This document shows, piece after piece, positions 1-60,273 of a stretch of DNA of 64,000 bases. Each line of letters starts with the position of its first letter. Position 1 is the first letter of the stretch. The position numbers and the translations under genes are program-made. The notes under the pieces are model-generated. The model had not been told where the DNA came from. It searched no databases and saw only the letters and a program-made list of their open reading frames with translations. The DNA is from Asparagopsis taxiformis (lineage: Eukaryota > Rhodophyta > Florideophyceae > Bonnemaisoniales > Bonnemaisoniaceae): NCBI GenBank assembly GCA_030407315.1, contig JALQPE010002354.1:124001-188000 (forward strand), written 5' to 3'.

Positions 1-570
1 GTCATGGGAGGGTACGTCCCAGATGCCGACGACTTTGACCCGCACAGTGGCATGCTTCGCCCCACAAACGTGTCGAGGCACAAGCAGCAGCGCGTCTTTG
101 CAACTTCATCATTCGGCCCCGCAAAGAGATCGCAGTACTCCTTTGTCGTCATCTCCGGAACTGCCGATGACTACAGAACCATATGGGTAGGGCGCGTCCT
201 GGCACTGGTACGCCTGCAGTCTCCAAACCTGTTTCAACCTGTAGAACTCGCTTTCGTTCAGTATATGACCTGCTTTGCCCCAAAAACCGCTGTGGAAAAA
301 TCACTTGGGTGCATTTGTTTAAAGTGGTCCACATGGGACCCGGACAACGGATCCGTTGACAGCAATGACACTGCATCCCACAGTGCAGGTGGTCCTTGGT
401 TTGACCTCATTCCTGCATCTACTATATCTGGCACCGTGCACATCGTACGAAGTAACTCTCCAGTCAAGCCATTTACGAAACAAATGCACTGGTCGGACCG
501 CCGTTTCTATCTCAACCGCTTCTACACCAACACTGATTACCAGTTCACAGATGATAATGAAGAAGAATAA
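1..570 (+). CDS. C-terminal end of a Plavaka/CMC-like transposase (partial)
   Basis: The frame is open from the window edge to a TAA at 568-570, so this is the 3' end of a longer gene; the ATG at position 4 is probably internal. I see no catalytic residues in this piece. Its last ~45 residues share a pattern with the end of the transposase ending at 33055: G-(T/A)-V-H, a spacer, an H, then an aromatic-rich block (FYLNRFYTN here, YYHVILRCNGY there). It ends 78 bp before the convergent coiled-coil gene. I infer it is the transposase of unit 1, mostly outside the window. The family call rests on the homology to the 29-33 kb gene. Confidence 0.55.
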   Translation, partial: VMGGYVPDADDFDPHSGMLRPTNVSRHKQQRVFATSSFGPAKRSQYSFVVISGTADDYRTIWVGRVLALVRLQSPNLFQPVELAFVQYMTCFAPKTAVEKSLGCICLKWSTWDPDNGSVDSNDTASHSAGGPWFDLIPASTISGTVHIVRSNSPVKPFTKQMHWSDRRFYLNRFYTNTDYQFTDDNEEE

Positions 571-647
571 ATCTAAATCGCAGCACTCTATTGATAATGT
601 ACTACATGATAAGCCTTCTAGTCAACGTCACATTTACTGCACTAATT

Positions 648-2931
648 TCAACCATCCTCCATTACGCCAAAACCGTTATCAGCAGTGGCTGCATGGCGCC
701 GCTCCATGCCCCCATACTGTGGGGCATTGATTTCGACATTCAGGTTTGCACTCAGGTGTCCAGCATATGGGTCAACGACGAAAAGTTCTGCGCCAATTAG
801 TCCTTGCGCAATCACACAATCCATTACAGCACCGAGGTTTGACGTAATATGCGATTGAATCCAATCCTCGGACACTAGAACAAGTGATGAGCAGCGGTTT
901 ACATCATCAACGACATGAACAATTCCAGACCCCTCTCCGCTTTGCCACACTTCAACAGCCTCTCTCGTCACAGTACGGCTTGCAAACACATGCCGTGACT
1001 GTGCACTAGTCCGCTGATCGCTCTCGACAACGTCCGTTTCTTCTCTTGCTTGCGAGCCTTGGAGACAAGACATGCAGTACACCACCATACCAACTAATTG
1101 CTGAAAAGCTACCCCCACATATTGACTGTACCGCCTTGTAAACTCCTTCTGCCGTGCACCTCCTTTCCCCTTCGGTTCATCCAAACACTCCACAGTAGTC
1201 ACTAGCCAAGCATCCAGGCGCGCCAGCGTTAGTATGCTCGTCTCTATGTCCATTACTTGTTCTGGTCGTATCGAATAACCCCTGAAGATGTCCAGCACAT
1301 TCACAGCTACTCGGTTGTTAAACCATGCATCACCATTCACTTCCATTTCGAAGCTGTCAGGAACCATGCCTTTGCTGTATCGCAGCTCTGAGAACAGTGC
1401 CGTTCGCCACCTCCCCATATCCAAATCACCGTTGCTTTCCCGTTTCAAAAGCTTCTCAGACGCTTCGCGCTTTTGATCCTCTCGCTCGTCCATCTCAGCT
1501 CGCGTCGTCAGCATCGTGCATCTAGACATTAATTTCGTGTACCCCAGCGAACCGAACAATCTGTCCCTCGCATTACGCTTCCGTGCACTCATCACGTCGG
1601 ACAGTTTCTGCGTCACCTTCACTTTCAATTCCTTGCTCCCCGCCACAGCCTCTTGACAGCACACACGCTGCTCCTCATCGGAAAACACATCACACCACGG
1701 ACTTTGACGCAGTACGTGTCGCACCAAGTCATTCAACAGATCACTCTCGTCTCTGTACGAAGGTGTATACCACTGCAGATTCTTGATGATGTAGCCCGGA
1801 GGGGTAGCAATATATCCTACACCGTTTTCGCTCCAAAGTGTCCCTTCTACCGGCTCTACCTCGATGGTACGTCCAGTCCAACGTCTCTGCGTTTGTTCCG
1901 CTATAGGGTCCAGCTCCATAGTCTCGTTCTTGCACCACTTTGTCAGGTTTTCCTCAACCGCCCTAAGAACTCCAAGGTATTTCACAGGAATGGCTTTCTG
2001 TATTTTCGACTTACCGCCACCGTGATCACTGATTCTACCTGTTCTCGCAATTGCAGTAAGGCTGGCATTTTCCGCCTGCAGAGTCTTCACCTTAGCCTCC
2101 AACGCAACTATCTCCGTGGTGAGCGCCTTGTTTGCTATGTCCTGGCTAAACACTTTTTTCCAGCTCCGCGATCTTCTTCTTCTGCGCATTGATGCGACTC
2201 GCCATTAAATCGATGGATTCCGGCGGATGCAACCTCTCTGCTCTCACCGTCCCCCCATCTCGCACGCTATCGGGATTATGATGTCCTCCATCGGCAATAG
2301 CCTGACGTCGCGGGGGCGTTACGCGCATATTTGGCACCAATGACAGTCTGTTGTGACGAGGCCCGCACTCCGGCTGCTCTCTCCCCTCAGTACCACCTGA
2401 CCGCCGATGATAGTTGGCATCCTGTGAACGTTGCTCAGAAACAACATCCCTTGCCGCTATCCTCGGGTCCCTGACTGCATTACCTGCTGGGGCTGATGTA
2501 CTCGGCATAGTTGGCGCAGTGGGGGTCACAGCCTCCAGTGTCTCGCGAACCCCCGGCTGGGACTCCGTCTGCACCACCTCCGCATCTGCCAACCCGGGAG
2601 GAACTACCTTTGCCATAGCACTCTGCCGCAATTCCAACATGTTTTGAGCCACTATCATGTCATCATCATGATGTTCACTGTCCCTGCGAGCACGCTTGCC
2701 TCGGTCAAGCCTCATCTCTCTCCGCGCCGTTCCTCCTTCCTCACTTTCTCGCTGCGGATCCCCAGTTCTGCGCCGGTCCGTCTTGCGACTACCGGACCGC
2801 GGTTCAATGCTGCCGGTAGACCCACACCGCTTCTTCGCACGGGATTGTCGGGCACTCGATACAGCAGCTGCTGACCGGGTTTTCTGGAGGCCCGGAGGCT
2901 TTGGAGCTTTCTTCGCAATACGCGGCGGCAT
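648..2931 (-). CDS. Coiled-coil protein of unit 1, encoded in two frames
   Basis: Two overlapping frames on the minus strand: 2146-2931 (261 codons, ATG at 2929-2931) and 648-2189 (513 aa). The first is basic and disordered, rich in K, R, P and S, and ends in a heptad pattern (SRINAQKKKIAELEK). The second begins with the continuing coiled coil (IVALEAKVKTLQAENASL) and then a ~400-residue globular region I do not recognise. The frames meet at a run of six A (T6 at 2154-2159), six bases before the first frame's stop; a +1 (or -2) shift there would join them into ~760 residues. The right arm has the same A6 run and the same two frames. A 195-bp palindromic repeat lies in the upstream region. The product could be a DNA-binding or oligomerising accessory protein of the element; function unknown. 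Confidence 0.7.
2154..2159 (-). promoter_or_regulatory. A6 run at frame junction of coiled-coil gene
   Basis: The coding strand reads GGAAAAAAGTG, followed shortly by the TAG of the upstream frame. Reading +1 after this run continues the coiled coil without a break. Slippage is inferred. A6 at the matching place in the right arm (43788-43793) argues against a random sequencing error. Confidence 0.4.
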
Positions 2932-3166
2932 AATGAAGCCTTCCCCGAAGCGATGGAACGATTGAGTTGCACGAGATACAAAAAAAATTGCTGTATAGTG
3001 TCGGTAACCACAACGGTCTGCGATGAACGTTCAGGTCAGGTCAAGTACCGGAGAATACGCCAACAGCCCAGATTGTATACGGTAGGCAGTCATCAACAGT
3101 ATTTAATGAGGTACAATTACAGCTGTCGAGCTAGGCCGCGAGCACCCCTATGTCCGGAAGACGTCC

Positions 3167-3364
3167 TGATTTGAATTAAAATTTGGGCTATTCTCAAAAA
3201 CATGCACATGTGAACATGTTTTTGAGATGGGGGTGTGCCGTACGGCACAATCGACCCGCTGAAATCGATGTTTTTTGCAATATTTTTTTCTGCCCTGAAT
3301 TGTAGAATTTCTGGGCTGGACAGCAATGCAACTGAGCTGGACATCCACCGGGCGTCCATTTCAA
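3167..3364 (-). repeat. Palindrome-rich ~195-bp repeat, copy 1
   Basis: Full unit, described in its repeat strand. It starts with GGACGTCC-GGT-GGATGTCC-like sequence (here GGGCGTCC). Then come an imperfect palindrome GCCC-AGAAATT...AATTTC-GGGC (degenerate here), a perfect palindrome GTGCCGTACGGCAC, and a hairpin with arms TCAAAAACATG / CATGTTTTTGA around a 10-nt loop containing CACATGTG. It ends in AATTCAAATCAGG. This copy lies upstream of the coiled-coil gene. Confidence 0.9.
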
Positions 3365-3591
3365 CTTGGTCGTGTATTTTGCATCTGCACGCATAACAGT
3401 AACCAAGCAGTCAGGTTCACTGCTCGGACGAAGTGCACCTAGAGTGTGAACGATTGGTTTTTGACAGGCGAGTACTGCTCAATAGGTTTCACCCTGGACT
3501 AATGGTGGCTGGACATGCTGCATTATATGATATACCTCAACTCTGGAACGTAGCTTTATTTGTAGTCGAAATGAAAACATCTTTCGTGACC

Positions 3592-4104
3592 CTAATTCCA
3601 TGCTCTAAACGCTGTCCCATAATGAACGTAGAGCTCCTGCCCCGGACAGATATCGCGGATTGCACGTACTACAATGATCTTCGGATTTTCTAGGTCCTTC
3701 GCCTTGAGCTTCTTCCCCGTCGAACCGCTGCTGTAGTTCTCGACAAACTCGACGTTGGCCATCCGCCTGGTGTCTTCCGCCGGAGTGTCCTCACCTCGCA
3801 AATACCGCGGGTCGTTGATGAAATGCGCCGAACAGAACGGAGCCGGAACAATCCAAATTGGATGCTCGATGTTTTCGTCGTCCTCTGCTGTTGCATACAG
3901 CTTGATGGCATACATCAAGAATGTTTCCTTCGTTATCGCCATGTGACCCTCTCCGTACGCGAACCTCATCGACTCCTTGCTCATATCAGAGTACACAACA
4001 GTTCCGTAGTATGCACATACTTCGTCGCCAACATTAAATGTCTGTTCAGCGAAGAGCCCTCTTCCTGCATTTGGATGCTTAATCAGCGATGGTCGAACGC
4101 TCAA
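3592..4104 (-). CDS. SET-domain protein, probably made as a C-terminal extension of the methyltransferase
   Basis: 170 codons with SET-family landmarks: GRGLFA near residue 14, an HFINDPRY block (~100) in place of the usual N-H-S motif, NVEFVEN (~118), and ELYVHYG (~160) like the GEEL-x-x-DYG motif. Family members methylate protein lysines, typically on histones, using SAM. The frame opens only ~14 codons before the GRGLFA region and has no ATG there (first codon available at 4104 is TTG; the first ATG would remove GRGLFA). It overlaps the end of the methyltransferase frame by 4 nt, just downstream of an A6 run. I infer expression by -1 frameshift from that gene. The right arm has the same arrangement with a few substitutions. 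There is no obvious post-SET cysteine cluster. Confidence 0.8.
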   Translation of the reverse strand: MSVRPSLIKHPNAGRGLFAEQTFNVGDEVCAYYGTVVYSDMSKESMRFAYGEGHMAITKETFLMYAIKLYATAEDDENIEHPIWIVPAPFCSAHFINDPRYLRGEDTPAEDTRRMANVEFVENYSSGSTGKKLKAKDLENPKIIVVRAIRDICPGQELYVHYGTAFRAWN

Positions 4105-6794
4105 TTTTTTCGCAACACAATCGTGTGCCGCATCACGCGAGGGTTTTCAGTTTGCAACCAGCGGCGCAGGGAAGGTGGCCAATAATGTACCGGTTTTTCC
4201 ATGTGCTCGTGCGACGCAATCGACTCTGGGCACAGCTGCCAGAGGTACTGCCGAATATATTTCGGGAACCTCTGGTACAGGGGAAGGCCAGGTGGGGGTT
4301 CGATGATCCTGCGTTCCCTCTGTGTACGCATCGTGACAGAGGGGGACGCCAAGAACTTCTCAGCACTCTGTTTCGCTTCTGTCGTGACCCTCATGTCAGT
4401 GTTGTTTGAAAGAATTACACGTGACATGACTGCACACAGCTTTGGAAGCGATCGTGCCACACACAATTTGTCCATGTCACTGCCGACGAAAACACGGTGC
4501 TCAGGCAAGCTCATAGCTGCTTTTCCCGTTGCGAAAGTGCCAGAGAATGGATCGACAACAATATCACCAGGCTGTGAATGCTGGCTGATCAACTCCATCA
4601 TGAGAGCGACGCTCTTCTGCTCTGCACGAACTCTGACCGTAGCACCGGTTGTGCTCCTTGTTCGCCACACCATCTCATTCGAATCGATGGCGGGCATATT
4701 GATGGTGACGTTGCACCACGCCGGGTACGTGCCGTCCATGTATCCGTGGTTCCTATAGGCCACCATCTCGCTTCCAGTCTTGAACGGAACACCTCGCTTC
4801 CAGAAGTGGATAGCGACCTCTGCCATGTTCATGCGTTGGTACCTCTTCCGCCCCGGCATTTGATAGAGGTGCCCAGGTAGTCGGACAAACAACAGAGGTA
4901 CCTCGTCAACGAAGAAAACTGAATTCCGAACGACGTCCTCCTCCTCCTCCTCCTCGTCCTCCTCCTCATCCGCACTTTCTTCGCCACTGTGCTGCGATGC
5001 TTCGGAGTCCGAATTCATGGACGTAACCTCTTCTTCATCCGACCCGTCATCACTGGCAGCAGCATCGGTTGGGCCTTCTGACTGCGGTCCTTTGTACGTT
5101 TCCAAGTAATGGAACCATTCGTAGAACTGCAAAACGGAGCAGAACACGATGCCGTGGCCACCGGGGCGCAACAGCTCGTCAAACACTTCGATGCTAGCCT
5201 GCATATCTTCTGCAGTTAGCCTGTCGTACGAAGAGTTGGAATCGTTCCTCTTCCGACGAACATTGTAGGGCGGATCAGTCAGAATGAGCTGAACGTTGCC
5301 CGTGATGGGCACGTGTTCTCGGCTCTCGTCGGCACTGACCAAATCTTCGAAAGGGACGTCGTACACCCGGCAATACTGACTCATTTTCGAAAGAAAGTCC
5401 TTTGCGAGAGCCTGCCCTTCACTTTCCTGCTCTTCTGTCGCATGGGGTGACGGTGACGGGGGAGACGGCCCTTGGGCAGTAAGACTGGTCCTCCCAGGTC
5501 CAAGTTGAAGCCTGGTTGTGTGTCTTGTCGACGGAACCAAACCTCTCCCTCCTGTGTTGCGACGAGTGGGAGTGTCATCAACCGGCTTGGGGACCTTTTC
5601 TGCGTCCGCGGGTTGTGGTGCCGGGCGGAGGACAGCCATAACGTCTTCGTCGAGGGTGTCAAAGTACGCTGGCAGCTTGTCCGGATTTCCGCTTGACAAG
5701 TATATTTCCAGCGCCCCCCAGCGGTCGGACTCCGGCCAGGTGTACAGGTCCGGGTTGACGATAAGAAACTGCAACCGGTCGAAGAACTTCCTCACAAGGT
5801 CCCTAAATGCACTGTGCTGCGCACTGGTTCTTGTCTCTACTTTTCCACCATATCCATCAGGATGAGATAGGGGAGCTTTGTCGTGGTAGAGATCTAGCTT
5901 CTGCTCCATCGGTGCGAATAGACCTTCATCGAGCACGTCAAACCAATGCTCACTGCTGTCGAAAATGATGTACGGCGCCATCAACTCTTCGAAGCTGGAA
6001 AACTTTGCGGCGAAGGCCACATCGGTCCAAGCATGGTATAAAACTTGAACCACGTAACAAGCTCGATTAGTGCTTTTCCGATGGGCTGGGACGCGTGCGG
6101 CTTCGTTCCCCTCTTCGGCCGCGTCGCCTATTCGGCGACGCGGCAGGTTCTTGTTGTGATTTCGGATGATAGACAACGCTTGGAAATACATCAATACCTC
6201 GAACGTTTCCGGTGGAGCAAGAACGAAGGCGCTTGGTTCCCCGCGCTGCGGCGCCTGTAGTGGCGAAGGAAGCATGTTACATCCAATAAGGAAGGTCTGC
6301 GGCACGATCCCAGAAAGGATGCAGTGCTCAACCCATTGCCCGATACGCTCATCCTGTCTTGAAAACTCGGCAATCGGTAATGCCAGACGAACAATCTGCT
6401 TGGCTCGCTCAACGTTCATCTCTGCCATGACGATTTCGGCAACATCCGCCTCGACTCCAGCATTCTTCGAACGACCGCTGAAGGCCATGCTGAGTCGACC
6501 TTGCAGCGCCGCAAATTGTTCTTCCGTGCCCTGCGCAACCCAAGCGCCAAGGTCCGCGTATGTGAAACCTCCCGGCTTGTCCGTCAAGTCTGCGAAACTT
6601 GAGTGGGCGAATAAATCCAGCAAGAGGCGGAGGAAGTCTTTGCCAGCGAGAGTAGTTTCGCGGGCGGCGCGACCTACGTTTCGACGTGTACCCATGTCAC
6701 TAGAATCCTCCCAAGGGCTAGCGGGTTCGCGCAGATTTGGCACGGTTGCGTCGTCAACGATCGGATTGCTGTTGCGCCTGCGCTTATTCGTCAT
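4101..6794 (-). CDS. Beta-class DNA (N6-adenine or N4-cytosine) methyltransferase of unit 1
   Basis: 897 aa from ATG at 6792-6794. The catalytic motif IV ILTDPPYN lies near residue 503-510, and the SAM-binding motif DPFSGTFATG near 745-755. This order (IV before I) is typical of beta-class amino-methyltransferases such as the adenine/N4-cytosine enzymes of restriction-modification systems. Residues ~1-450 are helical, of unknown function, followed by a P/S-rich linker. An acidic run (~605-625) interrupts the catalytic domain between the motifs and differs by two codons between the arms. The gene is divergent from the ParB-like gene and runs into the SET frame. Both copies are open throughout, which suggests recent activity or selection. 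Base specificity cannot be read from the motif alone. Confidence 0.88.
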   Translation of the reverse strand: MTNKRRRNSNPIVDDATVPNLREPASPWEDSSDMGTRRNVGRAARETTLAGKDFLRLLLDLFAHSSFADLTDKPGGFTYADLGAWVAQGTEEQFAALQGRLSMAFSGRSKNAGVEADVAEIVMAEMNVERAKQIVRLALPIAEFSRQDERIGQWVEHCILSGIVPQTFLIGCNMLPSPLQAPQRGEPSAFVLAPPETFEVLMYFQALSIIRNHNKNLPRRRIGDAAEEGNEAARVPAHRKSTNRACYVVQVLYHAWTDVAFAAKFSSFEELMAPYIIFDSSEHWFDVLDEGLFAPMEQKLDLYHDKAPLSHPDGYGGKVETRTSAQHSAFRDLVRKFFDRLQFLIVNPDLYTWPESDRWGALEIYLSSGNPDKLPAYFDTLDEDVMAVLRPAPQPADAEKVPKPVDDTPTRRNTGGRGLVPSTRHTTRLQLGPGRTSLTAQGPSPPSPSPHATEEQESEGQALAKDFLSKMSQYCRVYDVPFEDLVSADESREHVPITGNVQLILTDPPYNVRRKRNDSNSSYDRLTAEDMQASIEVFDELLRPGGHGIVFCSVLQFYEWFHYLETYKGPQSEGPTDAAASDDGSDEEEVTSMNSDSEASQHSGEESADEEEDEEEEEEDVVRNSVFFVDEVPLLFVRLPGHLYQMPGRKRYQRMNMAEVAIHFWKRGVPFKTGSEMVAYRNHGYMDGTYPAWCNVTINMPAIDSNEMVWRTRSTTGATVRVRAEQKSVALMMELISQHSQPGDIVVDPFSGTFATGKAAMSLPEHRVFVGSDMDKLCVARSLPKLCAVMSRVILSNNTDMRVTTEAKQSAEKFLASPSVTMRTQRERRIIEPPPGLPLYQRFPKYIRQYLWQLCPESIASHEHMEKPVHYWPPSLRRWLQTENPRVMRHTIVLRKN
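4105..4110 (-). promoter_or_regulatory. Candidate -1 slippery site joining methyltransferase to SET domain
   Basis: The coding strand reads cgA AAA AAT TGA in the methyltransferase frame. This fits the X-XXY-YYZ rule for -1 frameshifting, with the stop codon directly after it. A -1 slip leads straight into the SET frame. I did not fold the downstream sequence for a stimulatory structure. Transcript slippage at A6 or a short intron are alternatives. Confidence 0.5.
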
Positions 6795-7138
6795 AATGGA
6801 ATGAGTGGAAATTCGGTACAGGATGGCGACCGCTCGGCGAGACAGTCAAATTTGACGACGTATCTCGTGACGTTTGCACTCTTTCGTGAGGAACACTGGT
6901 TGATATCGAACGGAACAGAGTATACGGGTACACAGCACTGGAAAGGTCTTGAAACCCGTAACCGGTGTAGGTAATAAGTTGTGACGGATACGTGGTAGAG
7001 AAAAATTTTAAAAAGATTGTGATTCCCTGTCTTTGAGTGTTGTACTGCACGGCCGCCATGGCGGCTGTGACTGCAGTCACATAGGTTGTCACAGGTGCAT
7101 CACGCTTACCAGGTGAGCGACATCCGGACGGCCACTGG

Positions 7139-7322
7139 ACATGGGGATGTCCAGCTCAGATGCATTGCTGGCCAGCCCAGAAATTGTAATATTTCGGGCA
7201 GAAAAAATATTGCAAAAAACATCGATTTCGGCGGTCGATTGTGCCGTACGGCACACCCCCATCTCAAAAACATGTTCACATGTGCATGTTTTTGAGAATA
7301 GCCCAAATTTTAATTCAAATCA
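7139..7322 (+). repeat. Palindrome-rich repeat, copy 2
   Basis: Starts at a GGATGTCC sequence and keeps the GTGCCGTACGGCAC palindrome and the 11-bp-arm hairpin. It lies ~345 bp upstream of the methyltransferase start, with its GGATGTCC end facing that gene. Confidence 0.9.
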
Positions 7323-8470
7323 GGATGCAGATATTCGTCTTCTAGCATTGTCAGAACACATTCGTATAACCACATTTGGAGAACCTGAGCCCAGAGCTAT
7401 CGGTTTTGGCGGGAGCTAAGCCATATCTCATATAATCAGTAACTACTTCCCGCCAGCTGAGTGGTGGAACCCCTGCTATTTCTACCAACGAGACATACGG
7501 GGTGTCAACTCGGCAATCGTATATGATTTGGGTGCTAAATTTATTCAAGAGACGAATGGGCTTCGAAAAGGAGCCCAACAACGTTTTCTTGTGATCCATG
7601 GGTATAGGACTATTCTATTCTTCTCCAGGCTTCCACCATAGCCTCCTCCACCACCTCCGTTAATGGATCGAATATCCGAACCGCACCTCAACATGCTTTT
7701 CTTCTCATCCATGGGTACTGACATCTCCGAGATGTGAGTCACATGTTCTGCAGGCTTCCACCGTAGCCACCTCCTCCGCCTCCGTTAATGGCAACAATAT
7801 CCGAACCGGACCTCAACATGTTTTTCTTCTCATCCATGGGTACTGACATCTCACATGTTCAACATGTGAGATGTCAGTACCAAAGAAGTTCTCCAGGCTT
7901 CCTCCGTAGCCACTTCCTCCACCTCCGTCTGTGGGAATCAACACAACATCACCACTGCGTCTTACCTCACACCCACATCTCTCCGGGATGAAAACGGACG
8001 GACGACATAGGGTTTGTAGACGTTTAGAATCTTGTTAGAAAAAAGTAAACGAAAGAGAACTTCTCTTTCATTGAATGATATCTCGTCCCTGTCGCAATAT
8101 GTTCCATTTTCAATTTCTCGGGTTGCACACCCATCATGGGTGATCAAGGCCTGGATCGAACCCTCCGAGGGTCTTCGATGGATAGGACAGATAGTGGAAG
8201 GCTTTTAAGCCTGTGACCAAGCGGCTATTGATTGGTTGGAGGAAGGAAATTACAGAGGAAATATAGCTGAGTACGGTGCTCGCGATAGCTGTTAGGTTAA
8301 AGTCAAATATGTTTTTCGATTATTTTTCGTACGGAAATGCCTTGGAAAAGACGATGCTTTGTCGTTCTCCTGGAGGGAGTCCGTTGCATTGCACTCAATT
8401 CGAGAGCATCGTCATGAAGGAGAGGATTCTTTCTGCTTGTTAGAATCGGTTTAGAGCAGATAGCTATTGC
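7323..8470. repeat. Intergenic stretch with Gly-codon-rich tandem units and a 43-bp palindrome
   Basis: Between the divergent methyltransferase and ParB genes. About 7620-7940 holds three degenerate ~125-bp units; on the minus strand each would encode a Gly-rich block (INGGGGGGYGGSLE) and a short tail, so this may be a decayed coding repeat. A near-mirror version sits at 38040-38370. Positions 7839-7881 form a perfect palindrome with 21-nt arms and a single central base. I see no complete gene. Confidence 0.6.
7839..7881. repeat. 43-bp perfect palindrome
   Basis: Arms 7839-7859 and 7861-7881 are exact reverse complements around a central C at 7860. The right-arm counterpart near 38090-38132 has one mismatch. 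Confidence 0.95.
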
Positions 8471-8631
8471 ATTACTGGCCAGCCCAGAAATTTTAGAATT
8501 TCGGGCAGCAAAAATATTGTAAAAAACCTTGATTTCAGCGGGTCGATTGTGCCGTACGGCACACCCCCATCTCAAAAACATGTTCACATGTGCATGTTTT
8601 TGAGAATAGCCCAAATTTTAATTCAAATCAG
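8471..8631 (+). repeat. Palindrome-rich repeat, copy 3 (5' end diverged)
   Basis: Lacks the GGACGTCC start but keeps all three internal palindromes. It is followed by a ~190-bp spacer that begins GTGTCTAATTTGGCC and recurs after copies 4, 6 and 7, giving a ~390-bp tandem periodicity. Confidence 0.9.
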
Positions 8632-8823
8632 GGTGTCTAATTTGGCCACAACGGCCCCAGGCACCGGCCGCCGCCCCGAGTGGGGTTGTCACTGGCTTCT
8701 GTAAGCACTAACTGTAAGGCTAAATGGCGTCTGACGAAGGGTCAATTTCAGGCTCAATACGACAGGGACAGGTCTTGGTCCTTGTTCCATCATGGTCCCA
8801 CCCCACTCTCTCACGACCAACCT

Positions 8824-9019
8824 GAAATGGACGTCCGGTGGATGTCCAGCTCGATTGCACTGCTGGCCAGCCCAGAAATTCTAAAATTTCGGGCACAAAA
8901 AATCTTGCAAAAATCAACGATTTGGGCGGGTCGATTGTGCCGTACGGCACACCCCCATCTCAAAAACATGTTCACATGTGCATGTTTTTGAGAATAGCCC
9001 AAATTTTAATTCAAATCAG
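8824..9019 (+). repeat. Palindrome-rich repeat, copy 4
   Basis: Complete unit. One unit-plus-spacer of ~388 bp in this stretch is missing from the right arm, which has one copy fewer, consistent with tandem gain or loss. Confidence 0.92.
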
Positions 9020-9322
9020 GGTGTCTAATTTGGCCACAACGGCCCCAGGCACCGGCCGCCGCCCCGAGCGGGGTCATCACTGGCTTCTGTAAGCACTAAC
9101 TGTGAGGCTAAATGGCGCCGAAAGATGGGTCGATTCCAGGCTTCAAGCCTAAGTTATGCTAGGGAGAAATCTTCTTCCGTGTTTCATAATGGTCCCGCCT
9201 TACTCCCTCAACACAAACAATACTCACCCATCACGTTACTCATATTCCGTGCACTTTGTATTAGTAGTGAACCCGCCTGCTTAGTTGCTGCAATGCGTGG
9301 ATGTAGGCAGCACACGACCAAC

Positions 9323-50690: not shown

Positions 50691-50802
50691 TCAGCGAAAA
50701 CCGGGAGGGAAGAAATTACAGCGGAAGGTAAATTCAGGGCCCATATCGGACCGTATTTTATTCTATCATTTACGAAACAGCTGGTATACAATACGTCTCT
50801 CT

Positions 50803-50946: not shown

Positions 50947-52257
50947 ATCGTCGATCACCCATCTCCTCAATATCGCGTTCTCCCTACCATCCGAACGCCA
51001 TGCACCACCATTCGCACATACTTCAAGAACCCTCACGACCTAGATTACAAAAACCCGCTCCTTCCCAATTCCATCCCCGCTTTCCTCGACACCACCCCAG
51101 CCCATTAAATCATCAAGACATCAAACACGAACATGGTCAGCAAAATCTTACACCACTTGAAACCCACTCTCACTTCTATCGTATGCCCCAAAATATACAC
51201 ATACCAGAAACACCTCACAGCTTCATTCCCCATCTTCCTAGATCCCTTCTTCACTCTCCTTGAGTCCTGCCGTTCCTGCTTCACCACTCCTGCATCACAT
51301 ACAAAACATCAGAATCAACCACAACAGTCAGATTCAAAAGCAACGCTTACCACGACAGATATCCTAGAAACTCCCTTACTTACCTCTCATCCATCCTACA
51401 CACAATACAAATCATGATTGAAAAACCTTGCAATGAATAATCAAAGTCAGCATTCCATATCTTCGGAAAACACATCTTGGCACTCAATGAAACTTACCTT
51501 CCGTCATCAACATTCCTGCATCATCTACACAACATCGGAATCAACCACAACAGTCAGACTCAAAACCAACCTTCCCTCGCAGCATACTTTCAAAACTTCA
51601 CATACCTCTCTTCCATCCTCCGCTCAATACACACCATGAGTCAACAGGCTTCCAATGAAAAATATCGCATCAACGGAAATAGTCAGACTCAAAACCCACG
51701 CTTCCCTCAATGCATACCCTCAAGATTCGCGCACGTACCTTCTTCCATCCTCTACACTAAACAAAGCAAAGGCGGTCCAAGAATCTCAGTCGGTGATGAG
51801 GGCGGAGTGGAGCCTGCGGCGTCGACCGGACAGCTTTCTGCGTCCGCTTAAGTCTTGCTGTGCATACTCGAAATCATCGCCGGCAGTGAGATTGAGTATG
51901 GCCCAAGCCATGGTCTCTGAATCCCCGAACAATGAGATCCGGATCGAGAACAACGAATATAAACATATAATCATATATATGAGAATCCATTTGCTTTACT
52001 TACATGATCCGTGGCATATCCGCTGTAAAGCACATTCAGATTCCACGAAGTTCGGAAATAGAAAAGTTTATTATTACAAATAACACTGATTTTTGTATGA
52101 ACAGAATATATTTTCGAGTTAAGAATAAATTTGTTTCGAAAATGATTGAATAAATTTCCATATTCTGATATTGATTGACCTTTCCATAAATGTTCCGAAA
52201 TCGATTGATCTCATGGTTATTTCATTTCCGTGGTGCAGAAATATTACAAAGAACAGT
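50947..52257. repeat. Repeat-rich, gene-free stretch
   Basis: About 51285-51740 carries three degenerate copies of a segment containing ATCAACCACAACAGTCAGA. A minus-strand frame at 51786-51974 looks protein-like but matches nothing I know. The remainder to 52257 is AT-rich. Confidence 0.55.
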
Positions 52258-54881
52258 TCAGTATTTCCCCAATGCTACTAAACCTGCTCTAATTTCCTTC
52301 TCTACTCCTGCTCTGAGTTTCTTGTTCGTCAAAGAATCAAACTCAGCTATTACTGTATCCACAGAAATATTCCCTTGCCAAGGGTCTATATTTTTTCCTC
52401 TTCCAACTGTCGCCGGACGATACTTACCACTCCATGCATCCCCTTTGTCATACACTTCATACCATCTTATGAACAGATTTCTTGTCACGCCACTTCCATC
52501 CTGGATACATTCGATAATCTGTCCTAGCCAGAAAGGCATTTCCTTCGTACATCCGTATCCATTAACAGCAACAAATCGATTCCTAGAATAAGGTAGGTCT
52601 GTTTGAGCCATCATTTCCTGTAAATTTTCTTCATCCTCGTCAAACCCATGGTTGGAAAAACTCTGATTACTGTAAATTCCATTCAGCTCTACGCACTCTT
52701 CCAAGTTCCAATGTAGTGGTTCGTCTCTGTCTCTGTACACTTGAGCAACCAGTGCATGAAGTGATCTCATTTTAGCGACACTGTTCACCCTTACCTCCTC
52801 TGATCTGAGCCTTAGAAGAATTTTTTCCTTATCTGGTGGACAGACAACAGAGTTACAGGGTGCCGCGTGAAGGTTGGTGGAGATCGAGTAAATCCTTTGA
52901 GACCATTGGTCAATGCTGGAAGGCTTCTCCACTGGTCATCACAAGAAATTTTGACATCACAAGCAGTTTTGAAGAAGGCAGAACCCCGTTCTGTTTCGGG
53001 ATCTCTGAAGAATCTGAAGTAGCGGAACTTTGAAAAAGGTTTCACCTTCCCAATACAGTTTTCCATCTTACATAAACCCGAGAAATTGATAATGTGTAGC
53101 ATGCGGGAGACAGATGGTTCAGGCGTGAAAGACTTTCGCAGTTCATCGTGGAGATCCTCCATAGTTGCTGCGTTATTGAATTTCAGTCTCCTTGATGTAC
53201 AACTGAAGGCTTGGTCGATATCAGAGTGAGTGTGTCCTATAGGAAGGAAAGACACAAATATCTCTTCGTACACACCCCATGCCACTAAGCATTCCAAGTA
53301 GCAGAACAAGAATGAATTTTTGTTCTCCCGTGTGCAATTGTCAACTTGCAAAAAAAGTTTTCCCTGTAGTTTAGATCCTAATGCTTTGCTTGAAAGCGTT
53401 CTGTGAAGCGCTTCCACGATATGGTTAGCACCAGTTTCAAATTCTGCGGTCATGGTGTACAACGAGAGATGTTTTCGGGCACCATGCTCTAGTACACCTA
53501 TCAGCCTGACCTTCACACTATGCCCAACTGTCGCTTTTGTATTGACAGTGAAATGGGGAAGCCCATATCCAGACTGGTCTGCACCATCCACGATAAGTGA
53601 TGTATACTGCGAAGGGTACAACGCCGCTAGCTCACACCTCTTCTGATACTCTCTACGTTCCCGAGAAACCATCTCTATATGCAAACGTCTCCGTTCAAGA
53701 AGAGGAGCTGTACTCTTCTTGTCTGTTCCATACTTGGCTAGAGCGTCCCGAATATACTCACAATCAGTACATTTTGTGAATCGCTGAATTCTTCTTACTT
53801 TGATATCACCGCAATACTTCTTCCAAGTTGTGTAGAAGTATGCCAAAGAAGGTATATTATGATATCCATGCAGAACAGTGTACTGTTCTCGGAAAACTTC
53901 ATAGACAGATTTCTTTTGAAAGAGTGGAAGGTGTCTTTCGTTGGTGTCAGGCATTCGCTCCGCTGTAGAATCCGCAAATCTGTCCAGGAAACATATAACA
54001 GAGTCCCTCTGTGGACTCTCTGGGTCTTTTTGAGCTGATGAAAAACAGACTGATCTTCCATTTGCCCATGAAATCTTCACTGATCGTTGCATGTGTCTAG
54101 AAAACATGAAGGAAGACTCCAGGAATTTGTAGCAGACTTTCCTCCCGCAAAAAAGGTAAACTTTAGAGCTGGGATCGAATAATTTCTCCAAGTATCTTCG
54201 CCGATCAATCCTTCCCCATAAAAGTACTCGGCTGACTTCAGACCTCAGAAACGTTGGGTCTGTACTTCGAAAGCATCTCCTTTTCTTACAACAGAACTGT
54301 TTTCTGATGTCTAGATTAGATAAAGACGTGACATGCTTCCTCTTCTCGATCATCCTTTTGCTCACACGATTTCCATTACTCCTCTTGTCGCTATCATGGC
54401 TTTTTCGTGGACTTGTATCCAACTGATAGATGGATGGTTTTCCAATTGGACAAGATGACGCACAAGAATCAGAATATCTTTCTGTTGCAGTACTTGGAGA
54501 TAAGCAGTCAGATACAGAAGCTTGTTTTACTTCCAGCGGTGATTGAAATGGAATATTTCCGTAACCGTCATTACGCTCCAAAAGAATTCCAGATTCCGAA
54601 CGATTCAATGAACCTCTGACATATTCTTGGCGGTTTCTGTTGAAACGAATTGGAATTATATCATTGCTCAATGGAATTCCTTGGTTTGCAGATGATTTTG
54701 ATCGGTTTGGATGATGCGGAAATGAGTTCTCGCTGGTGCATTGTTCAGCTTCGGCTTCGATCCCCAGCGTTGCAAGAATACCGACAGCACTTTTGTGAAT
54801 CAGTTTGCGGTTGGTGTCGGAGAGGCAAAATGTGTCCTCCATGAGTTTGCAGTGGTTTTCACTTCGAACGCTCACTTTCAT
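52258..54881 (-). CDS. DUF7869-type DDE transposase with C-terminal BAH/Tudor-like domain (unit 3)
   Basis: The main frame is 52812-54881 (689 aa, ATG at 54879-54881). A Cys cluster FCCKKRRC (~54.29 kb) and GRKVCYKFLESSFMFSR (~54.13 kb) lie in the N-terminal half. The RNase H-like core shows VDGADQSGYGLPHF (~53.59 kb), QVDNCTRENKN (~53.34 kb) and GHTHSDIDQAFS (~53.22 kb), the hallmark blocks of DUF7869-type transposase-like proteins, giving candidate D, D, D residues. A second frame, 52258-52932, has no ATG at its start (GTG) and meets the first at A6 (52821-52826), eight bases before the first stop; -1 shifting adds ~190 residues including GYGCTKEMPFWLGQII, a BAH/Tudor-like segment. It is followed on the same strand by the ParB-methyltransferase gene upstream. 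Confidence 0.75.
52821..52826 (-). promoter_or_regulatory. A6 run at frame junction of unit-3 transposase
   Basis: The coding strand reads AGGAAAAAATTCTTC, then TAA in the transposase frame. A -1 slip continues into the BAH/Tudor-like frame. Confidence 0.4.
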
Positions 54882-55092
54882 TGAGAGGTGAACAGAAGGC
54901 GGGCAAAATTTGTAAGTACTGATAGAGCATATAATTCAAATTTACAAAAACAGAGAACAAATTTGGCGCCAAATATTGTACAACGGTAATGATCGATGTG
55001 AAAAGATTTATTCCATTCTTCTCTAGATGTTTGGAATCGCTCTTCAGTAGTGCAATGTACAAAAATAGTACTCATTCGCAAACATCTTTATC

Positions 55093-57963
55093 TCAATTGG
55101 AACATCTCATGCTGTGTAGGTCCCAAGAGAATATTCCCGCTAAGCCCTTCAGGTTTCCCGGAGGCTTCTCGATGCCTCCATAACCATATGGGTATTTTTT
55201 ATCGCCAGCATCCTCCTTAACTTTGAAGGAATAGCATGCAACTAGCTTCTGGCCATCTTTCTCGTACTCAGAGAGAGGAACATTATGAATAGAAGTATGT
55301 AAATCACTGTCATTATCTGGAGCTGACAGAAGCTTTGCATGACCAATAGTGATTCCATCAAGGAGTAATTCAACTCCGTCCCCTCCTTTCAGCATATCGT
55401 TTCCACTTTGAACAATAGTACTGCTCTTTTCGATCATCTTCGTGATTTCTCCACTGCTTTCAGCTTTTGAATTCTCTCGCGTCTTTCTCTTCTTCATTGC
55501 GTGGTGTGAGGATGGACTTTTTCGGTACAGTATCTCTGCCACTGCACGTAGCCTCTCATGGGCAAGACGAAATGTAGATGCGCTTGACTCGATTACTACA
55601 CATGAACGTGCAGTTCGCAACGAAGCTATTCCAGTAGTGAAAGTACCTCCGTAAATATCCAAAACAGAACCCCGTTCTGGACAAAATGTATTGATTAGTT
55701 CAGCAAGCAGACCCACATTTTTCTCCTCTGTTAGGACGGGAGATTTCGTGCCTGGCAAAAGGAGCTTTTCTTTTGAAACGGGTATACCTGACATAGCAGC
55801 AAACCGTCTGCTTGTCTTTGAAGGAACGAAGTTGTAAGGGCTCCTCAAATCTGGCTTGAATGCACTTTTCGAAATTCCTGGTGCCCTTGCAATGACAGAA
55901 AATTCACAAGCGTTCTGAGGAAACTGATCACCTCTGTGAGCTTGCATCGTACTGGTATCCTTCATAATTACGAATGGGTATTCTGGTCCGGCAAATCCGA
56001 TGCGGTGAAGTTCGTTGTAGAAAAGTTCGAAGTTTCGAAATGAAACAAATGCAAGAAACCACCCTCCCGGCTTCAAGACGCGCCTGGCAAACTGACATAT
56101 CTCTTTCACTTCCTTGTCATCTATGAAGTTATCGTAAGAAGTGTTTCGCAAAGAACGAGATTTAGGCGTCCCATACGGTGGATCTGTCAGTATAAGATCG
56201 AAGAGAGCATCACCATCTGTCCAAACGGTCTTATCAAAATCTTGCCATTTCATCTGGTGGCATGAAACACCCAATTCGTCAAGATAGTTAATTTTCTCAT
56301 CCAGCACTTCTGTAGTACAAGCAACTCGTTTTGGACGCGTATTCAGTCGGACAGAATTGGCACTCGGAGCGTTTGATGGAGCGGAATTATTCCTGTTAAC
56401 CTGCTTCGGTTGAACGGAATTTGGTTCCGAATTAGGTTTGGTCAAGACTTCTGATTCAGGCATATCGCCTAGATCCTGTGGTAATGTTCTTGGTGCCTTT
56501 CCTTCTATAGTGATGCTCGGCACTGGATGTGGAACTTGATCTTCAGGAACTTCATCCCCTTTAGTGATATCTTCAGCTGCGATTGGAAGAGAATCATCCG
56601 CGGAAGCTAAGGCAGTACAATTGTCTTTAGCCTGAAGTTCTTTCTCCCTGGTGAAATTCTCGGAAAACTTTTTTTCTTTAAGCGGTGCAGCCTCAGGACA
56701 AACTTTCCGATATTGTTTAAGAAGAGAATCTAAAACATCTCCATCATTCCCGAAATTGGCAGTAACTTCACAATCAAATTTTGTGGTACGGAGTAAGTTG
56801 TGCTTGACTACTTCCATTCCAGACGGCCATTCATCATCTTCTAAAAGAGCTTCAAACTTTCGAGCCTCCCTCATTGCACTACAAGCACTCTCAAACTGCT
56901 CCACTGTTACCTTATACGATGCTGCTTTGAACTTGTTCGTTCTAGAAATTTCCCTCAGCCGGTGGAGCGTGTTGATTTGATTCTTTTCTCCGTCCGGACC
57001 TGAGGCTCTCATGAACTTTGTCGCGGACTTGATTGAAGTTATGTTGATGAATTTCCTGTATACTCGACAATCGGTGCATCGCATATTCATGGATTTTTCC
57101 AGCGGTTTATATTCAGCAGAACTTGGTTCTGCCAAATCCGGGTGCTCTTCGTTCATGATTACTCCGATCTCATGTATTACACTTAGTGGAAGTCTAACTG
57201 CTGTTGTTGCTGCTTGTCTTATAGTATTATCCTTCAGATGCGTACAACCATCATACGCTGAAGCGATCTGTTTCGCAGATGGAGCTCTACCATTCGACAT
57301 GGTCTTCAATCGGTCAGCTTCATCTCTTAAACCGACCAAAGTATCATAGAAAGTTGATTCGATGTAAAAGGATGCATCATGTTTCTTATTCTGATGCCTT
57401 CCTAATTGCTTCAAAGTTTGCAAGCTGTGTCCGCCTTTCAGAATAGTCACAGGCCACAAGAAAGACTCCCAGTGTTCTGGATCTTCGTCTATTAACTCAC
57501 GAATAGCAGTCATTCTGTGCATTCCGTCTACTACTCCGTACCAGACAGAACGATCTTCTGCTTTTTCTGCGGCTTGGGATTCAGAGATAGGTTCCCCGTC
57601 CGAGCCGAGTTTAGATCGGAAGAAGTCCAACACATGTCTTTTCAAACCTCCCGTTAGCTCTACAACAATAGCATTATCAGATCCAGCAACAAATCCATCT
57701 CCAATATTCTCTATGGGCATTCCATCTCTCTTTCCCGAAGAAACTGTGGAACCTCCACTGAATATAGACTTCAATCTCAAGACACCAGAGCGGGATATTT
57801 GACGAATTGATGTCAACGGAATGCAAGATCGAGGATCTACACGGCTGTTTGTCGAGCCTTCCATGATATCAGCGAACAATGCTTTAACGGATGCATCCTC
57901 CCGACCAGAACTAGGTTCTGTCGAGCTTATTTTGTGTTTTGCTTGAAAGAATCGCTTACTCAT
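55093..57963 (-). CDS. ParB-like/beta-class DNA methyltransferase fusion (unit 3)
   Basis: The frame is open from 58113, but the codon there is TTG; the first ATG is at 57961-57963, giving 956 aa. GVVDGMHRMTAI (~residue 140-150) carries the ParB/sulfiredoxin D-G-x-H-R signature. A middle region (~280-520) has C-T-D-C-R-like and acidic low-complexity parts. The C-terminal half is a methyltransferase: LILTDPPYGTPKSRS (~590), VLKPGGWFLAFVSF (~630), and LDIYGGTFTTGIASL (~770) as SAM-binding motif, again in beta-class order. Unit 1 carries the same two activities as separate divergent genes, so this fusion links them functionally. It lies ~210 bp upstream of the transposase on the same strand. The frame is intact. 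Confidence 0.85.
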   Translation of the reverse strand: MSKRFFQAKHKISSTEPSSGREDASVKALFADIMEGSTNSRVDPRSCIPLTSIRQISRSGVLRLKSIFSGGSTVSSGKRDGMPIENIGDGFVAGSDNAIVVELTGGLKRHVLDFFRSKLGSDGEPISESQAAEKAEDRSVWYGVVDGMHRMTAIRELIDEDPEHWESFLWPVTILKGGHSLQTLKQLGRHQNKKHDASFYIESTFYDTLVGLRDEADRLKTMSNGRAPSAKQIASAYDGCTHLKDNTIRQAATTAVRLPLSVIHEIGVIMNEEHPDLAEPSSAEYKPLEKSMNMRCTDCRVYRKFINITSIKSATKFMRASGPDGEKNQINTLHRLREISRTNKFKAASYKVTVEQFESACSAMREARKFEALLEDDEWPSGMEVVKHNLLRTTKFDCEVTANFGNDGDVLDSLLKQYRKVCPEAAPLKEKKFSENFTREKELQAKDNCTALASADDSLPIAAEDITKGDEVPEDQVPHPVPSITIEGKAPRTLPQDLGDMPESEVLTKPNSEPNSVQPKQVNRNNSAPSNAPSANSVRLNTRPKRVACTTEVLDEKINYLDELGVSCHQMKWQDFDKTVWTDGDALFDLILTDPPYGTPKSRSLRNTSYDNFIDDKEVKEICQFARRVLKPGGWFLAFVSFRNFELFYNELHRIGFAGPEYPFVIMKDTSTMQAHRGDQFPQNACEFSVIARAPGISKSAFKPDLRSPYNFVPSKTSRRFAAMSGIPVSKEKLLLPGTKSPVLTEEKNVGLLAELINTFCPERGSVLDIYGGTFTTGIASLRTARSCVVIESSASTFRLAHERLRAVAEILYRKSPSSHHAMKKRKTRENSKAESSGEITKMIEKSSTIVQSGNDMLKGGDGVELLLDGITIGHAKLLSAPDNDSDLHTSIHNVPLSEYEKDGQKLVACYSFKVKEDAGDKKYPYGYGGIEKPPGNLKGLAGIFSWDLHSMRCSN

Positions 57964-58113
57964 CTTCTGGTCACAATCGAGCTCTGAGTAAAACTGTGGT
58001 TTCGCGCTGTGAACTTGACCAGGCTGAACCTTTGTCCAGAAACGAGGAACGAAAACGACAGGATAATTGAATGATTGGAGCCTCCTTTTGCTACATGAAG
58101 AGTTTTCTCGCAA

Positions 58114-59190
58114 GTGTTGAGTTCCATGATAAGTAAGTCAGTGAACCTTTTACGAGTTCAAAATTTGTAAAGTTGCATTCCAGTCAGATTTCATTCCTCC
58201 CAATCAATCTGCATTTCGGGAGTAGTACTTTCGGCACACCTGGCAATCACATGGTCATCAGAGAGATGAGAAACTATATGGAAGTGATATATGGAATAGA
58301 AAGCCGGGCCAATGGTGTCGTTTATCTGTCTAGAAAATATCAATATTTGACAACAGATATTTTGTCCTATCCTTCGCATAACCAATAGAAACGTTTTTCA
58401 CATAGACTGCATTGAGTGACCATAATTGGTGGGCTTAGGGCCCAAAATTTTTTGATATTCCGGTGGCAATTTTGAAGGGTATAGTCTCGCGAGGTTACAT
58501 TCAAATGGAAATAATCGTCCCGAGATGATGTGTCAGAATGCTCAAGCTAATCTTAGAACATGAAACCTATGCATCAAATATCAATATTCGCGGATAGGTA
58601 TCAATCTTGTCCAACTTGGAGGATGTATTCACCTCCCGTGTCACATTTTCCGGTCCGCATAGTCGACAGAAAAATAGTTCCAATTAATTCCGAACGTCTC
58701 TTTTGGGCTGGAAGCTTCTGAACAGAAAGTCATTCTGATGATATAACCAGAACACAGTTCTTTTTCACCTAAACTTTATGGAGAGTACATATGGGATTTT
58801 AATAGCTTCGCAACGGTTACTGGGTCTAAACCGTTCTGGTCATTTTTGGGCGGGACGCTTCGAGACAGAACAAGGTTCTGATGCGAGAACCAGAACACAG
58901 TTCAGTGTTACTTAAATTTCTTGCAATCTACAAAGGGAATTTGGATAGTCTCGTAGTGTTTTTGGGCTCGGGAAGAAGTTGTGCACCTTTCTGTACAAGT
59001 GTAAAGGTTTTTGGAAAGTTTACAGAACATTAAAAATTTTAAGTTCGTATCAAATATCAATTGTGTTGCTGGAAGCTTCCAGCCAGAGCGACGTTATGAT
59101 ACAAATTTCAGAACATCGTTCTGTTTTTATTTAATTGCGTTGTAGCTGCTACTCTACGTTGGCGAAATGTGATGGGTTGTCAGAAACACC
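58114..59190. repeat. Intergenic stretch with degenerate direct repeats
   Basis: From ~58650 to 59140, three degenerate segments (~150-200 bp apart) share a GGGCTGGAAGCTTC-like start, an AGAACA-rich middle and an ACAGTTCT-type end. No gene is seen. It separates the ParB-methyltransferase gene from the divergent transposase derivative. Confidence 0.55.
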
Positions 59191-60273
59191 ATGGAAGGTA
59201 CAGTGAAACGGAAGACTCTAGCGAGAAAGTCTCCTCGCACATCCCCGGTCGTCAAGGATGGATCCATGGAAGGTACAGTGAAACGGAAGACTCTAGCGAA
59301 AAAGTCTCCTCGCACATCCCCGGTCGTCAATATCCGTTCTACGGTAGGGAGGAAAGCGCCACGTTCAGCCAACTCTGGCTCCTCCCGCTCTGGGAAACGC
59401 ATCCAAGAAGCTCAGGCTAGCGGCCTAAAGGCGAAGAGGGTTACCAAAGCCATTGAAATTGAGAAAAGGGTAAATGACAAGGAGCTAAAAAATTTAACCT
59501 GCTGTAAGGATTTCTGCTTCAAGCATGTTGATGGAAAAAAGCTCTGTGAAGACCTGAAAAGAGTTGCGAAAATGAACAAAGCGGAGCGGCGTTTATTTCT
59601 GGAATCACTGTTCGTGAAGGATTTCAAGTGTTACAAATATGGCACAATACGAGTTTGTTATGTGTTTCTAATGTCTACGTTCCTTTATTCAAGAGATATT
59701 CTATGGAAGACTAAGAGGATATTGTCAGGTAACAACGTAGAAGAACAGCAGGGCGATGAACAAGACAATATATCTGAGCAGTGCATTGATTTCGGAGATG
59801 GTGGTGGCGATGGATGCGGTGATAATGGTAGTAATGGTTCCGATGAAGACGATTGTGTCGAACGTGGTGATGGTGGTGGCGATGGATGCGGTGATAATGG
59901 TATTAATGGTTCCGATGAAGACGATTGTGTCGAACGTGGTGATAGTGATGAAAAATATGCAACCAATTCATTTGTTATTATCAAAGGAGACGGTTGTACA
60001 TCTGAGGAGCCTTTCTGGCTTGGCAAGATTCTCTCAACGAAGAAAGATCGAGAAGGCAACGTCTCCCACTTCAAATTGCACTGGTACAAGAAGTGTGCAG
60101 GTCATGCACTAACCTGCAAGTACCAACCTTGTGTGCTACCAAAGACTGGTCGTGCTTGGACAGATTCAGTTAGTGTAAGTTCTGCTATTCTAGATGTACC
60201 TTATCTTCGAGGAGGAGTGCTAGATACATTTACTTTCGAAACACTTCGACGTCAACTAGATCTATGGGAGTAG
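59191..60273 (+). CDS. Internally deleted transposase derivative (Cys cluster plus BAH/Tudor-like domain)
   Basis: 360 aa from ATG at 59191. Residues ~1-50 contain a 75-bp direct duplication (starts at 59191 and 59266). Residues ~105-175 (CCKDFCF ... GTIRVCYVFLMSTFLYSR) match the N-terminal region of the 52.8-54.9 kb transposase. An acidic DGGGDGCGDNG segment is duplicated with a 72-bp period (59794-59865, 59866-59937). Residues ~260-360 (GDGCTSEEPFWLGKI ... WYKK) match the C-terminal BAH/Tudor-like region of the same protein. The DDE core between them is absent, so it cannot catalyse transposition. It could be a binding-only repressor or a non-autonomous relic. The frame is intact. Confidence 0.7.
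   Translation: MEGTVKRKTLARKSPRTSPVVKDGSMEGTVKRKTLAKKSPRTSPVVNIRSTVGRKAPRSANSGSSRSGKRIQEAQASGLKAKRVTKAIEIEKRVNDKELKNLTCCKDFCFKHVDGKKLCEDLKRVAKMNKAERRLFLESLFVKDFKCYKYGTIRVCYVFLMSTFLYSRDILWKTKRILSGNNVEEQQGDEQDNISEQCIDFGDGGGDGCGDNGSNGSDEDDCVERGDGGGDGCGDNGINGSDEDDCVERGDSDEKYATNSFVIIKGDGCTSEEPFWLGKILSTKKDREGNVSHFKLHWYKKCAGHALTCKYQPCVLPKTGRAWTDSVSVSSAILDVPYLRGGVLDTFTFETLRRQLDLWE

Follow-up and report, generated by a model that had tools for sequence, protein, structure and literature searches.

Nested DNA transposons of a red alga carry putative DNA- and chromatin-modification genes from a common domain pool

A nest of three transposons

We analysed a stretch of 64,000 nucleotides from Asparagopsis taxiformis (G000:C2228:124001-188000, hereafter the window; C-numbers denote contigs of this assembly of 141,494,207 bases in 3,156 contigs) that carries methyltransferase, SET, ParB-like and dioxygenase-like genes beside transposases. 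Three unrelated cut-and-paste elements, here called units 1, 2 and 3, are nested in one another within the window. Each joins a transposase or candidate transposase to proteins that draw on one set of domains, namely a beta-class methyltransferase, SET, a ParB-like and a dioxygenase-like domain and one of about 105 amino acids. A first-pass annotation, made from the sequence alone, had proposed one family of transposons carrying DNA- and chromatin-modification genes. That transposons carry such cargo is supported by ends, target-site duplications (TSDs), empty sites and copies, and the terminal repeats, TSDs and multiple copies named there as a check were found for the elements; the single family did not hold, the Plavaka-type, the CACTA-like and the DUF7869 element with its 4-bp TSD being separate lineages with related modules. 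The red-algal origin is borne out as well, since contig C469 holds 11 of the assembly's 13 phycobilisome-domain matches. The elements are arranged as follows:

1-16162, minus strand: internal part of unit-1 copy A, Plavaka-type, with its right end left of the window and its methyltransferase gene on the minus strand
16163-34500, no strand: unit 2, CACTA-like, 18,338 bp, CACTG...CAGTG, 2-bp TSD AA
34501-34996, minus strand: left end of unit-1 copy A with its terminal inverted repeat (TIR; 33-mer at 34964-34996)
34997-45342, plus strand: unit-1 copy B, starting within its own ParB-like/dioxygenase open reading frame (ORF) against the end of copy A and cut off at 45342
50504-52081, no strand: right end of a further unit-1 copy, reversed, with a right-type TIR at 50504; unit 3 is inserted in this copy
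52082-65204 (1,204 bp past the window), no strand: unit 3, 13,123 bp, AACACTG...CAGTGTT, 4-bp TSD AAAT

This layout, with two copies of unit 1 and one end of a third, was resolved against ten further unit-1 copies picked from 50 scored matches of the methyltransferase gene. Copy A, about 99% alike to the three reference copies in C430, C52 and C1754, is broken at 16162 by unit 2; copy B is 98.9% alike to copy A, and the sequence is uninterrupted there in C52, C578 and C1754. Units 2 and 3 are inserted mobile elements, because empty sites exist for both. The unit-2 site is empty in nine sequences (eight fetched unit-1 copies and, in the window itself, a piece of unit 1 at 49.9 kb), which gives the AA repeat, and the unit-2 flank had no match in C221, C1706 or copy B. 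For unit 3, eight unit-1 copies have the empty site and give the TSD AAAT, and 33 other places with the unit-3 end start within 3 bases of each other.

Both ends of unit 1 are seen in the C578 copy, which measures 19,368 bp and has 47-bp TIRs that are 87% alike (CGTCTG...CAGACG), the full form of the element being about 19-20 kb. In the two copies with both flanks read the TSD is 2 bp (TT in C578, TA in C52), and the flanks are distinct at six left ends. Exact counts over the whole assembly gave 1,183 places for the left-end 33-mer (594 + 589) and 1,219 for the right-end 33-mer (611 + 608), with 0 for the reversed-pattern control of each; the figure of 1,183 is one of left ends, and complete elements may be fewer. 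Pairing of neighbouring facing ends on the 37 contigs common to both listings (the first 100 places of each) yielded 26 pairs, 14 of them at 10.0-12.0 kb, 6 at 20.0-22.5 kb and the remaining 6 at 14-40 kb. Long elements are thus the smaller part of these pairs, outnumbered by a class of about 11 kb. Size classes of about 11 kb and about 21 kb were seen on contigs C9-C198.

The three units also differ in their transposases. In the C578 copy, unit 1 scores 62.8 bits with the Plavaka profile PF18759 (E = 4.3e-17), above the cut-off of 26.3; of that region the window holds just the edge (1-570, plus strand), which matches a small ORF next to the Plavaka ORF in that copy. Because its termini are CGTCTG..CAGACG, and not those of the fungal PlavakaA/B elements (TGT..ACA or CATCA..TGATG), unit 1 is Plavaka-type by transposase but neither PlavakaA nor PlavakaB. 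The ends of unit 2, CACTGCGTA.. and ..TACGCAGTG, have the CAC..GTG termini of EnSpm/CACTA elements, and its candidate transposase (29981-33055, plus strand) matches tnp2 (PF02992) weakly and below the cut-off (E = 0.045). The only transposase-type profile matched in unit 3 was DUF7869 (PF25273, E = 7.8e-48; candidate transposase ORF at 52812-54935, minus strand). A 4-bp TSD is typical of Sola elements, to which unit 3 may be related; the value was not found for Sola in the passages searched of PMC4455052 and PMC10294476. The 2-bp TSD of unit 2 is within the 2-5 bp of the wider EnSpm/CACTA group, unlike the 3 bp of fungal EnSpm (PMC12730594).

When the window is compared with itself, unit-1 sequence from 604 onwards recurs inverted, up to 45342, which had suggested one large inverted duplication; this was discarded for two opposite unit-1 copies, one of them split by unit 2. 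An insertion of copy A into copy B was likewise not adopted: the left end of A abuts the gene of B, but the second side of the insertion is unproven. The right end of copy A was not found in C2228:118800-119400, and the right end at C2228:100916 has a different flank. In C430 (L022/L021, joined position 5911) a unit-1 left end is joined inversely inside the ParB-like/dioxygenase gene, as at window position 34996/34997, which could be a self-insertion or a nested insertion.

Accessory genes and the domains they share

The accessory genes of the three units are the following:

4101-6845, minus strand: unit-1 beta-class DNA methyltransferase ORF, copy A, 914 amino acids (aa), PF01555 E = 2.1e-15
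39108-41846, plus strand: methyltransferase gene, copy B
3592-4146, minus strand: SET-domain ORF, copy A, 184 aa
41801-42355, plus strand: SET-domain ORF, copy B
9571-13815, plus strand: unit-1 ParB-like/2-oxoglutarate (2OG)-dioxygenase-like gene, copy A, in three main ORF pieces
648-3030, minus strand (copy A) and 42917-45299, plus strand (copy B): coiled-coil ORF, 718 aa, in two pieces
25567-26643, minus strand: unit-2 dioxygenase-like part, matching the unit-1 profile at E = 1.3e-7, against 0.32 for the best of 500 shuffles
26463-28385, minus strand: unit-2 ParB-like candidate ORF, GGVQL at the motif position, weakly matched (E = 0.046) by the ParB-like profile of unit 1
55093-58137, minus strand: unit-3 ParB-like/methyltransferase fusion, 1,014 aa, methyltransferase at about 646-867 and shared domain at 912-1014
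61292 to about 64539: unit-3 TOG/CLASP-like stretch, the first ORF of which matches PF21041 (E = 7.7e-50)

In C578 the methyltransferase and SET genes of unit 1 form a single ORF of 1,084 aa (PF01555, E = 3.2e-15; PF00856, E = 1e-6, 29.5 bits against a cut-off of 22.4). This longer ORF is present in 47 of the 50 scored places, and the short one in both window copies and in C285. The places scored were the best 50 of 3,804 candidates by similarity, so intact copies are favoured among them; all share 99-100% aa identity and none of the 50 has an inner stop. That the methyltransferase-SET gene is intact in 10 of 10 fetched copies is likewise ascertainment, the copies having been picked from its best matches. 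A PF01555 match above the cut-off and a DPPY motif were found for the methyltransferases of both unit 1 and unit 3. The unit-3 enzyme matches N6_N4_Mtase at E = 4.9e-14, and its predicted fold, the only one of the units' methyltransferases compared in this way (Foldseek and VIA-align against the PDB), is nearest to CcrM-type enzymes; methyltransferases fill the 50 best rows of each search, and the absence of ParB from these rows says nothing on ParB.

The ParB-like/dioxygenase-like gene is a single ORF of 1,398 aa in C578, whose product has the shared domain at about 116-218, followed by a ParB-like part with VIDGLHR and a C-terminal H-x-D...H...R. DG-HR is also found in three relatives at 28-34% identity, in which the H-x-D, H and R columns do not vary, and it is these columns that suggest a 2OG dioxygenase in unit 1. 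In the Pfam scan no 2OG dioxygenase family matched the dioxygenase-like proteins of units 1 or 2, a PDB sequence search gave no match for the protein, and its predicted model (predicted local distance difference test, 31) is too low in confidence to use. Of the best 33 of 4,632 candidates, which were scored, 32 reach nearly the full length, 27 of them free of stops. When distinct variants relative to C578 were counted in 11 other copies, both window copies included, with an assumed transition weight of 2, this gene gave 56 synonymous and 72 non-synonymous changes, a ratio to neutral of 0.46 (56:72 against 1:2.81, chi-square about 20, calculated by hand), which is a purifying signature. The ratio for the methyltransferase-SET gene (14 and 13; 0.31) is biased, as the copies were picked by this gene, and the counts for the coiled-coil ORF (11 and 21; 0.67, 10 copies) and the Plavaka ORF (8 and 16; 0.71, 7 copies) are too few to differ from neutral.

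The ParB-like candidate of unit 2 corresponds to a 939-aa ORF in C483 and C2232, which in C2232 ends in the dioxygenase-like part within one open frame. Of 42 places scored, 36 matched; about ten of these are close (most at 92-100%, some in pieces), and more distant paralogues, 23-30% identical, have ORFs of up to 1,365 aa.

We use the term ParB-like for domains whose assignment is suggested by a motif, a predicted topology and a viral fold match, with no profile match. A VDGxHR motif, comparable to the G-x-(R/H)R type of the ParB/Sulfiredoxin superfamily, occurs in the ParB-like parts of units 1 and 3, the predicted order of strands and helices in unit 3 fits the ParB alpha+beta core with modest confidence, and a viral fold match is labelled ParB/Sulfiredoxin, the aligned range not being given with it. 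ParB_N (PF02195) matched no element protein scanned, and its single match genome-wide is an ORF on another contig, the 14.7-kb C1526 (L001). This contig is probably bacterial sequence within the assembly, and the ORF is one that we take to be a bacterial RepB. Profile comparison with this RepB-like ORF gave 0.078 against 0.052-0.89 in 8 shuffles, no better than the controls, though the expected motif was aligned. A scan of viral sequences with the fusion alignment returned 6 loci, all matching within the methyltransferase, the RepB-like query returned no viral locus, and the ParB-like part alone had no phage match; of plasmid records, 3,370 matched, and all 15 among the matches listed did so within the methyltransferase. 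Hints short of significance are DndB, the only one from Pfam over the ParB-like part (E = 0.099) and a protein described as belonging to the ParB superfamily (PMC10853773), and, for P0006, a ParB family of PHROGs (E = 0.25).

The domain of about 105 aa ties units 1 and 3 more firmly than their ParB-like parts do. Proteins of the unit-3 type end in these ~105 residues, and a profile built from nine such ends (P0004 and P0007 were left out as incomplete) and searched among 668 sequences matches the N-terminus of the unit-1 ParB-like/dioxygenase protein in C578 (E = 1.4e-15), copy A (1.2e-15) and copy B (2.8e-15) and that of P0019 (2.1e-17), the sole other match being its own source protein. Thus the ParB-like domain is not, as had been claimed, the only part that the units have in common: units 1 and 3 share this domain and the methyltransferase, and units 1 and 2 the dioxygenase-like domain. 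Of the contents first ascribed to the units, the methyltransferase, SET and transposase parts of unit 1 stand by profile, and its ParB and 2OG parts are motif-based; the ParB-2OG paralogue of unit 2 keeps its dioxygenase-like kinship, with changed H-x-D positions and a weak ParB-like match; and in unit 3 the methyltransferase and the different transposase family were upheld, with no match to ParB_N.

Proposed self-marking and its alternatives

Transposons may encode enzymes that mark their own DNA and so evade, or make use of, silencing by the host. In our reading, which we give an even chance of being right, the accessory genes would be a self-marking kit against silencing. The ParB-like part would hold the element's DNA, the methyltransferase would write a base mark, the SET part would mark local histones and the unit-1 dioxygenase would remove or alter a repressive mark, so that new copies would stay expressible and could be moved. 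The base mark would most likely be N6-methyladenine, because the unit-3 enzyme is closest in fold to CcrM-type enzymes, although N4-cytosine enzymes share this fold. The version kept by unit 2 would probably be inactive and might be a reader or a copy in decay, and exchange of modules between transposon lineages would give each its own mixture. The module first envisaged, for writing, reading or removing marks on DNA, is plausible as judged from the sequences, with one of the two dioxygenase-like proteins appearing inactive. A more far-reaching form of the idea, which we consider doubtful, is that unrelated superfamilies share by exchange a kit acting on DNA bases and histones at once (a methyltransferase-SET double writer, a ParB-like/dioxygenase eraser bound to DNA and the ~105-aa domain as docking part), which would have helped unit 1 to leave more than 1,000 copies of its ends.

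Several results weigh against the self-marking reading. By profile, SET is present in only three of eight relatives of the methyltransferase, P0011 (98%), P0012 (28%) and P0014 (32%), its absence being judged by profile scan in P0018 and by a precomputed annotation column in the rest. Of ten proteins related to the fusion, two (P0009 and P0010) no longer have DPPY and a third (P0007) reads DPPF. The ParB-like domains have no significant match in Pfam, PHROGs or NCBIfam and seem not clearly alike to each other (unit 1 against unit 3: E = 0.00075 in a single comparison, probability 25%), and the ~105-aa domain had no match in P0020 and P0021. Among the ten fetched copies, which were not chosen by this gene, only the reference, C578, has an unbroken ParB-like/dioxygenase ORF, and C619 has one that is nearly so. 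Finally, the H-x-D positions of unit 2 read R and C, both in the window and in C2232; because these ligands are lacking we call the protein only dioxygenase-like, and it is probably inactive.

The accessory genes could also be passengers, caught by chance and hitch-hiking without helping the element, like the cargo of Pack-type elements. Many accessory ORFs are broken, and capture without function seems to occur in unit 3 itself, whose TOG/CLASP-like stretch has in-frame stops in the window copy, apparently a captured and broken host-type gene, and is found with the whole queried part in 22 of 28 matched places, the window included, at 98-100% DNA identity. We think it unlikely that this accounts for the modification genes, given that related domains occur in three different transposons, that relatives of other origin retain the architectures at 28-34% identity, that the ParB-like/dioxygenase gene bears a purifying signature and that in a unit-3 subfamily at 57% identity 9 of 9 scored members have no stops. 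A role in transposition or competition, with the ParB-like part as a nickase regulated by nucleoside triphosphates (NTPs) and the methyltransferase shielding the element's DNA, would aid excision or form a selfish restriction-modification pair; we judge it improbable. A bacterial ParB-methylase fusion does nick DNA, several ParB/Sulfiredoxin domains are reported as DNases or NTPases (PMC5512222), and the viral fold match carries the ParB/Sulfiredoxin label, but the ParB-like domain of unit 1 is on the dioxygenase-like protein and not on the methyltransferase.

The remaining alternative, that the copies are segmental or assembly duplications and not insertions, is very improbable indeed. The unit-1 right end at C2228:100916 has nearly the flank of window position 50504, so that some local duplication is likely, but the empty sites of units 2 and 3 contradict duplication as a general explanation, as do the distinct flanks of the unit-1 left ends, the other unit-3 starts and the 1,183 exact left ends. 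The self-marking reading has here a good test case: the parts that would write, erase and act on chromatin belong to elements whose ends are mapped, with more than 1,000 exact unit-1 ends and at least 50 near-identical methyltransferase genes. If true, it would bear on the origin of N6/N4 DNA methylation in algae.

Printed precedents and minor features

The closest precedent for unit 3 is Sola1-1_Ec32 of Ectocarpus, a giant DNA transposon of 21.5 kb with a 1,104-aa ParB-like/N4-N6 methyltransferase protein (PMC12477816). Unit 3 resembles it in having such a protein (1,014 aa) and differs in its length of 13.1 kb, in its TOG stretch and in the orientation of the genes, as the fusion and the DUF7869 ORF lie on one strand whereas in Sola1-1_Ec32 the gene is opposite to the transposase (PMC12477816). 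The same paper cites Iyer 2011 and Petroll 2025 for green- and red-algal transposons with ParB-like/methyltransferase proteins and for giant red-algal EnSpm elements with accessory genes. By description, the fusion is also like Bce_0392, a bacterial protein with a ParB domain fused to an adenine methylase, and ParB domains act as DNases and NTPases as well as DNA binders (PMC5512222).

For unit 1 the comparison is with fungi, in which TET/JBP dioxygenases occur in several unrelated transposon lineages, Plavaka and EnSpm included, and are proposed to help escape silencing; SET genes are described there in HarbingerS and MuDR elements (PMC12730594). Unit 1 shares with fungal Plavaka a 2-bp TSD (2-bp or 2-3-bp in fungi) and a dioxygenase-like gene, but it has CGTCTG termini in place of TGT or CATCA, and its dioxygenase-like protein lacks a Pfam match; the word ParB is absent from the text of that paper, whereas the units here carry ParB-like parts (PMC12730594). 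Plavaka-flanked giant repeats are described in Amoebidium (PMC11244446) and EnSpm-Plavaka elements in a green alga (PMC12633428).

The combination had at first seemed without precedent, which in part no longer holds: the kind is already known, because a ParB-like/methyltransferase protein in the Ectocarpus Sola1 element and TET/JBP genes in fungal transposons are in print. The abstract of Petroll 2025 reportedly names giant Plavaka elements. In a search that did not cover Iyer 2011, Petroll 2025 or most subscription papers, the unit-1 combination and the ~105-aa shared domain were not found in print, nor was any report of a methyltransferase-SET fusion or a ParB-like/dioxygenase protein in a transposon.

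Several further features complete the picture of the window:

59173-60273, plus strand: 366-aa ORF of unit 3, no Pfam match, no DUF7869 core
45822-49854: copia-type ORFs

The 366-aa ORF has 38% identity over 94 aa to the N-terminal part of the DUF7869 protein and 32% over 116 aa to the C-terminal domain of the ORF at 52258-52935 (minus strand), which may itself be the C-terminal part of the DUF7869 protein; the 366-aa product could be a regulator of transposition. By eye, and with no Pfam match, two ORFs have stretches that resemble BAH/Tudor-type chromatin readers, that at 16432-18033 in unit 2 (stretch VLWELSDGEMVWWKADI) and that at 52258-52935 in unit 3 (stretch PFWLGQI). A repeat family of about 183 bp has seven members inside the unit-1 copies (7145-9525, 14112-14681 and 42603-42785).

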